Shown one piece after another: positions 18,190 through 18,873 of a stretch of DNA of 38,590 bases (the first letter of the stretch is position 1; every line of letters begins with the position of its first letter). Source of the DNA: an uncultured Pseudomonadota bacterium (lineage in GTDB: Bacteria > Pseudomonadota > Gammaproteobacteria > Steroidobacterales > Steroidobacteraceae); assembly GCA_903890265.1 (NCBI GenBank), contig CAITAM010000443.1:1-38590 (forward strand). The letters are read 5' to 3'. The notes beneath the pieces were generated by a model. The model was given only the letters and a program-made list of their open reading frames with translations. It ran no database searches and was not told the DNA's origin. A program made the position numbers and the translations under genes.

Positions 18190-18804
18190 TCAGCCGGCCC
18201 CGTTGAAGGCCAGCTGGCTGAAGGACCGTGACTCCGGGTCGTAGAGCACGCCCCAGAAGCTCGTGCCACCGTCGCAGGCGATGACGGGGGTCTGCTTCCA
18301 GTCGATGGCATCCGGCCCGGACGACGGGGGCTCGGGGAAACCGTTCACGTAGATGAGCCGCCGGCCGCCGCGGATCACGCCGGCGTACTGCCGGTAGTAC
18401 TTCAGTGCGTCGTCGAGCGCTGCCGAGGGGCTGCAGCAGGCCGCCGCGCGCTGGCCCTTGAGGTGCTTGAGGTCGGCCTCGAGGCGGCGCAGGTCACGGG
18501 CGCTCGGGACCCACGAACCGGTAATGCGCGGCACCGCCCGGGAGCACTGCTGGACGACCGCCGCCGCCTGGGCCTCGGGCAGCAGCACCGCGTGGACCGG
18601 CGGCGGCGGCGCGTGGGCGGCCAGGGCCGCCGGTGCCGTGGCAAGCGCCGACAGAATGGCAGCGCCGCAAAAAAAAGGCGCCGCTGGCCCGGGGGTACAG
18701 GCAGCGCGGCGCCGAGAGCGACCTTCAGGGGGAATGAAGATACAAGTGCTTCGAAGCAAGAGGCGTGCCAAGTCTGGGAAGGAAATAAAACCACCTAGAT
18801 TCAT
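18190..18804 (-). CDS. Hypothetical, probably exported small protein; start uncertain
   Basis: C-terminal part looks coding (DAIDWKQTPVIACDGGTSFWGVLYDPESRSFSQLAFNGAG) with hydrophobic leader-like FFCGAAILSALATAPAALA-AHA. The nearest upstream in-frame ATG (18804) has no clear SD and lies upstream of a sigma-54 promoter, so the 5' end is unreliable. Confidence 0.5.
   Translation of the reverse strand: MNLGGFISFPDLARLLLRSTCIFIPPEGRSRRRAACTPGPAAPFFCGAAILSALATAPAALAAHAPPPPVHAVLLPEAQAAAVVQQCSRAVPRITGSWVPSARDLRRLEADLKHLKGQRAAACCSPSAALDDALKYYRQYAGVIRGGRRLIYVNGFPEPPSSGPDAIDWKQTPVIACDGGTSFWGVLYDPESRSFSQLAFNGAG
18669..18713 (-). terminator. Rho-independent terminator-like hairpin followed by T8
   Basis: Minus strand GGCGCCGCGCTG-CCTGTACCCCCGGGC-CAGCGGCGCC-TTTTTTTT (6+4 bp stem with a 2-nt bulge). 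Confidence 0.75.
18669..18743 (-). ncRNA. Predicted ~75-nt small RNA, sigma-54 dependent, two hairpins with C-rich loops
   Basis: Bounded by sigma-54 promoter (18755-18771) and GC-rich hairpin plus T8 terminator; hairpin 1 AUCUUCA-UUCCCCC-UGAAGGU, hairpin 2 GGCGCCGCGCUG...CAGCGGCGCC with CCCCC in loop. Confidence 0.6.
18755..18771 (-). promoter_or_regulatory. Sigma-54 -24/-12 promoter TTGGCACG-CCTC-TTGCT
   Basis: Matches consensus YTGGCACG-N4-TTGCW at all specified positions, with GG-N10-GC spacing. Confidence 0.8.
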
Positions 18805-18856: not shown

Positions 18857-18873
18857 GCGTCACTTTGTGACGC
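18857..18873. promoter_or_regulatory. Perfect 17-bp palindrome GCGTCAC-TTT-GTGACGC, candidate bacterial enhancer-binding protein site
   Basis: Centre about 96 bp upstream of the -24 element of the sigma-54 promoter; intergenic. Confidence 0.55.

Follow-up and report, generated by a model that had tools for sequence, protein, structure and literature searches.

What is the short unit that lies on the minus strand between an alpha/beta hydrolase gene and a secreted open reading frame (ORF) in the window, by which we mean the whole stretch of 38,590 nucleotides that was analysed, from an uncultured member of the Steroidobacteraceae? An earlier note, made from the letters alone, had read it as a sigma-54-dependent small RNA with two C-rich hairpin loops. 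Comparative evidence across many genera supports that reading, and we are all but certain that the unit is a genuine gene for a small regulatory RNA, in a bacterial family about which little is known. The fuller reading that we favor, with a probability of about 0.72, is that it represents a stand-alone sRNA gene of the PilS-PilR/sigma-54 regulon, whose C loops would lower the translation of target mRNAs.

The full-consensus sigma-54 promoter is where the note had placed it: TTGGCACGCCTCTTGCT occupies positions 18771-18755 of the minus strand, with its -24 and -12 elements in the arrangement TTGGCACG-CCTC-TTGCT, and it is kept across the Steroidobacteraceae family loci. About 12 nt past it, also as described, comes a compact unit of 75 nt (18743-18669, minus strand), closed by a run of eight T residues at 18676-18669. 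When the start is derived from the -12/-24 spacing, it falls near 18744 and the predicted sRNA has a length of about 76 nt (18744-18669, minus strand), an extent consistent with the fold and with the two covariance models, R1 and R2, introduced below. The predicted RNA has a folding energy of -32.9 kcal/mol (z -4.2), and none of 200 shuffles folds equally well.

Two C-loop hairpins appear in this fold. In hairpin 1, AUCUUCA-[UUCCCCC]-UGAAGGU (18741-18721, minus strand), the UUCCCCC is wholly looped, as the note had proposed for both hairpins. The intrinsic terminator hairpin (18713-18677, minus strand) also has a C-rich loop; it folds as GGCGCCGC/GCGGCGCC, inside which lie a 5-bp stem and the loop UACCCC, so that the last C of its C5 is paired and the claim of CCCCC in both loops has to be amended there. 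The longer terminator stem that had been drawn is an alternative pairing to the computed fold.

Within the window, the promoter motif alone has no significance, since two copies with one mismatch are observed and 2.6 are expected. Over the 3.44-Mb genome, the full 17-nt consensus occurs four times, and the reversed control contains none. A second genome of the same genus (G001, locus L003) retains the -24/-12 element, the terminator stem, an ACCCCC loop and the T-run, here of seven residues, and hairpin 1 is 100% identical over all 24 nt, which adds to the fold evidence for both hairpins. Where the two loci differ, the changes lie within the terminator arms and in the stretch from the -12 element to the start. 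The RNA is absent from G002, of the same genus as the window.

Model R1, a covariance model made from the window and G001 RNAs only and with the promoter left out, found matches in 49 of the 217 genomes of the Steroidobacteraceae (GTDB family) searched. A TGGC[AG][CT]N5TTGC element lies at most 110 nt upstream in 21 of the 28 best non-seed R1 matches, a count that tests the sigma-54 claim independently. For model R2 we took 18 relatives and excluded the window; with E no higher than 0.01 it matches 89 of the 217 family genomes, and it recovers the window with an E-value of 2e-4, ranking second among 369 genomes of the class. Of the 85 loci that were compiled, 63 have a sigma-54 element with one mismatch or none within 160 nt, against 1.7% of control windows; when the interval is extended to 480 nt, an element of the family type is present at 82 of the 85, in all 17 genera represented, with 0.6% in the opposite-strand control. 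Since part of these loci went into building R2, whose training set included some promoter-anchored sequences, the R1 figure is cleaner than the R2 figures. Many of the genomes compared are metagenome assemblies.

At least four C residues are found in the 5′ part of 53 of the 63 sigma-54 members, in the terminator loop of 58, and in both places in 49; by this comparison of relatives, the C-rich loops are kept by selection. Hairpin 1 of other genera has the same layout with different stem letters (GCGAACA...UGUUCGC). Covariation in the closest alignment is slight, at two of 19 pairs, and was counted on 18 close relatives because MAFFT misplaced the window's hairpin arm when the window was in the alignment. 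The note had held that a lack of conservation in relatives would tell against the sRNA. This objection falls, because the covariance search finds promoter, hairpins, C loops and T-run kept together in many genera. Judged by these matches, the window unit is one member of an RNA family.

How far does the family extend? At class level, R2 gave only weak matches outside the Steroidobacteraceae, without a sigma-54 element, and therefore we claim no spread beyond the family. Second R2 matches in the window's own genome (C367 and C433) were rejected, as they have neither promoter nor C loops. A pattern scan of all GTDB species, in which the promoter and the terminator arms were required and the C loop was not, returned 73 stretches. 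Most of these are chance matches without C loops and T-run; in about two dozen there is a T-run and both hairpins contain CCCC, and these come from gammaproteobacterial or other proteobacterial metagenome assemblies, one of them from the Steroidobacteraceae.

The surroundings of the RNA vary within the family. In some stand-alone members (L209, L215, L217, L219, L222-L224, L231, L234, L250, L251 and L258), the leader is longer and hairpin 1 follows the -12 element at a distance of 70-116 nt; in two loci that were folded, L051 and L058, the longer leader adds a hairpin without a C-rich loop. In most g18, g23 and g10 relatives (for example L060, L046 and L107), the sRNA gene lies directly 3′ of what appears by eye to be a SPOR-domain-like gene, and in the window genus it sits after the alpha/beta hydrolase gene. 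Since the upstream neighbor differs, the locus has moved.

A sigma-54 promoter calls attention to the DNA upstream of it. The palindrome TGAC-N7-GTCA and/or GTCA-N5-TGAC is found upstream of 59 of the 63 family promoters; in controls the frequency is 0.5%. The window copy, GCGTCACAAAGTGACGC (18873-18857, minus strand), is the only one in the window, where none is expected; it is kept in G001, and we propose it as a PilR enhancer. Both in the window and in those 59 promoters, the activator site falls in the upstream interval, 80-200 nt, that is expected for a sigma-54-dependent sRNA gene. Between palindrome and promoter there is an IHF-like element, YAANNNNTTGATW, which 62% of promoters match with one mismatch or none, as compared with 3.5% of shuffles; 38 of 39 copies have one orientation, mostly 31 nt before TGGC. 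The window copy, TAACTTTATGAAT (18811-18799, minus strand), is weak or degenerate, with two mismatches, at -41, and that of G001 has one.

When the 217 family genomes were searched blindly for GTGACANTTNNNGTCAC, 28 sites came up; a sigma-54 promoter lies downstream of 19, and each of the 19 belongs either to a pilA gene or to a member of the sRNA family. Contig C234 of the window's own genome carries pilS (PF25323 6TM_PilS match, 6.5e-26), pilR, the adjoining pilA and a second pilin gene, pilA2. The upstream regions of the sRNA and of pilA have a 15-mer core, CGTCACTTTGTGACG, in common, which lies about 87 bp upstream of the promoter for the sRNA and about 97 bp upstream of the pilA promoter, TTGGCACGGTGCTTGCT. 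The pilA promoter, too, is one of the four full-consensus sigma-54 sites in the genome; the remaining two precede genes that look flagellar by eye. The sRNA and pilA are thus alike in activator palindrome, IHF-like region and sigma-54 promoter. Since the 15-mer is common to the sRNA and to a pilA gene that lies beside pilR and pilS, the activator of the sRNA is probably PilR. Neither the PilR step, the IHF-like site and the pilA co-regulation, nor the small-ORF form discussed below, had been seen in the earlier note.

Might another activator bind a similar palindrome by chance and drive the same C-loop sRNA? The window's own genome has about 11 sigma-54 activator domains. Moreover, known PilR sites are of the GTCT/TGTC type, not exactly GTCA, and the GTCA half-sites match the published PilR hallmark, TGTN11AGA with GTCT elements, only loosely (PMC6058289). 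Against this, the palindrome search led to the sigma-54 promoters of pilA and the sRNA only, and pilR and pilS stand next to the pilA gene that has the 15-mer in common with the sRNA. We therefore consider a different activator unlikely, although it is the most serious of the alternatives. The main text of the RNA-seq paper on PilSR of P. aeruginosa mentions no sRNA (PMC6058289), and in the literature searched, of incomplete coverage, we found no report of an sRNA under PilR.

Because its control region matches that of the main type IV pilin gene, the RNA is probably made with the pili. The cell would then probably produce it together with pili, with the C-rich loops turning other genes down.

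A different use of the same promoter would be to serve the downstream gene, with the RNA as a leader or attenuator of the secreted-protein ORF that ends at 18190 and with the terminator as its gate. The ORF is indeed kept in G001, and downstream genes of other genera are often on the same strand, but the downstream gene changes completely between genera while the RNA stays: a secreted protein, a DnaJ-like protein, an RND adaptor and an M16 peptidase are encoded there, depending on the genus. The terminator is also strong, with seven or eight T residues, and the RNA is conserved in the manner of a mature product. These observations make a leader improbable. As to the ORF itself (18190-18660 of the window), it looks secreted, is kept in G001, and has no clear ATG, GTG or TTG start past the terminator.

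The form of the transcript is not the same everywhere. In g7, g11, g14, g17, g24 and part of g4, the hairpins with C loops stand farther from the sigma-54 promoter, which precedes them by 200-350 nt, and in most of these genera an ORF of 60-100 codons occupies the space between. The main type of small protein (...IVDPVSREVVGYEMEM...) is found in 30 of the 217 genomes; its genes mostly have a sigma-54 promoter 6-44 nt ahead of the start, and a C-loop terminator often follows the stop codon. Judged by this arrangement, the C-loop RNA would have a gene of its own in some genera and would form the 3′ end of the mRNA for the small protein elsewhere. Genomes G208 and G209 have the RNA at one locus and the small ORF at another. 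The conserved protein of L291-L309, L047, L053 and L054 has about 70-100 residues and is predicted to be beta-rich (pLDDT 85); the promoters of these genes carry the sRNA-type activator motif. Searches with the small protein gave no credible match in Pfam, none in NCBIfam, and none with E below 0.001 in a fold search.

The genera in which a C-loop hairpin follows a small ORF on one transcript lend something to the idea of an ordinary conserved terminator or 3′ UTR with no regulatory role in trans. However, the RNA is all that the promoter drives in the window and in the majority of genera, and the C-rich loops found in both parts of 49 of the 63 members are unneeded for termination; we give this explanation very little weight, marginally less than the leader. 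Least probable is that the conserved stretch is coding, as an N-terminal signal region of the downstream ORF: both genus members have the same frame open across the RNA and a 6-nt indel preserves it, but we rejected this explanation on the codon-position changes, which are even (7, 7 and 9) and make 10 of 14 changed codons non-synonymous, while conservation tracks the stems and C loops rather than codons, relatives retain the RNA without the downstream gene, and the sole near in-frame start falls within the -12 element.

How, then, would an sRNA of the PilR regulon work? In the scheme that we propose, phosphorylated PilR would bind the palindrome at 18857-18873, and DNA bending, probably by IHF, would bring it to the sigma-54 RNA polymerase at 18771-18755. 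An RNA of about 76 nt would be transcribed and would end at its own terminator, and its two C-rich hairpin loops would base-pair with target mRNAs at G-rich ribosome-binding regions, lowering their translation as sX13 does. Produced together with the major pilin, the RNA would form a post-transcriptional arm of the type IV pilus program, possibly a feedback. It is tempting to go further and propose that pilin or surface sensing switches on both the pilin and a C-loop RNA that damps genes with G-rich sites, and that this RNA and the mRNA for the PilR-controlled small protein are alternative forms of a single evolving transcript; we offer this tentatively, at slightly less than even odds.

The pairing of the C loops with Shine-Dalgarno regions is suggested by analogy with known RNAs. 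A scan for GGGGGAA-N3-10-ATG gave 31 sites against four in the reversed control, an excess that reflects ribosome sites in general. The only GGGGGAA candidate that recurs in both genus members is hppA, and the hppA-like mRNA is accordingly a candidate target of the hairpin 1 loop. In these hppA-like proton-pump genes (L317 in G000 and L333 in G001), GGGGGAA stands just 5′ of the start codon. Because the scan named no pilus gene among its candidates, feedback on the pili is put forward by analogy with sX13, whose example suggests that pilus genes are perhaps among the targets damped.

The parallel with sX13 (RF02232, Xanthomonadaceae), which the earlier note had drawn, is apt for the architecture: both are small RNAs with CCCC or CCCCC hairpin loops, the last hairpin being the terminator. 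While sX13 has three C-loop hairpins and the window RNA two, three are found in the relatives at L084, L100 and L107. Through its C-rich loops, which pair with G-rich motifs, sX13 represses hfq and genes of the type IV pilus; its gene is constitutive and lies beside polA (PMC3771888). The window RNA has other neighbors, the alpha/beta hydrolase gene and the secreted ORF, and has a sigma-54 promoter with an activator site, whereas at the sX13 loci examined (L192-L194) the closest sigma-54 element within 300 nt has at least three mismatches. Rfam gave no match to the window at the gathering score, the sX13 and Qrr families included; relatives score at most 27 bits against the sX13 cut-off of 50, and none of 197 genomes of the order has an sX13 above it. 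Sub-threshold matches of relatives to sX13 and ncS54 were counted as resemblance only, and assignment to RF02232 was rejected on the score, the two hairpins and the sigma-54 promoter.

In the Vibrio Qrr system, sigma-54 and an activator of the response-regulator type drive a short RNA. This second parallel of the note holds for sigma-54 control and fails in all else: there is no synteny, the loops are others, and the activator is LuxO, as opposed to one of PilR type here. GlnZ and NrsZ are sRNAs under NtrC and sigma-54, and GlnZ derives from a 3′ UTR (PMC9731577). They resemble the window RNA as non-coding arms of a sigma-54 two-component regulon, and the origin of GlnZ recalls the small-ORF members; they differ in serving the nitrogen regulon instead of pili and in having unrelated sequence and structure.

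Small RNAs controlled by sigma-54 are few, and we found none under PilR in the literature searched. The present case would join the transcriptional switch for pili to post-transcriptional control through C-rich loops; for sX13, which affects pilus genes, no transcriptional link to pili is known. The case would also be an example of an sRNA that stands alone in some genera and forms the 3′ end of a small-protein mRNA elsewhere.

Other C-loop RNAs were encountered on the way. Two genomes of the class, G543 and G650, have sX13-like multi-hairpin C-loop RNAs without a sigma-54 promoter (L196, L201 and L172), and G650 contains two different C-loop units about 500 nt apart. In Desulfuromonadales (Deltaproteobacteria), a separate recurrent unit with a TGGCAC-N5-TTGC promoter (L103, L106, L124 and L140) ends in the terminator GCGCCG...CUCUCUCCCC(C)...CGGCGC plus a T-run, and is possibly another sigma-54 C-loop RNA.
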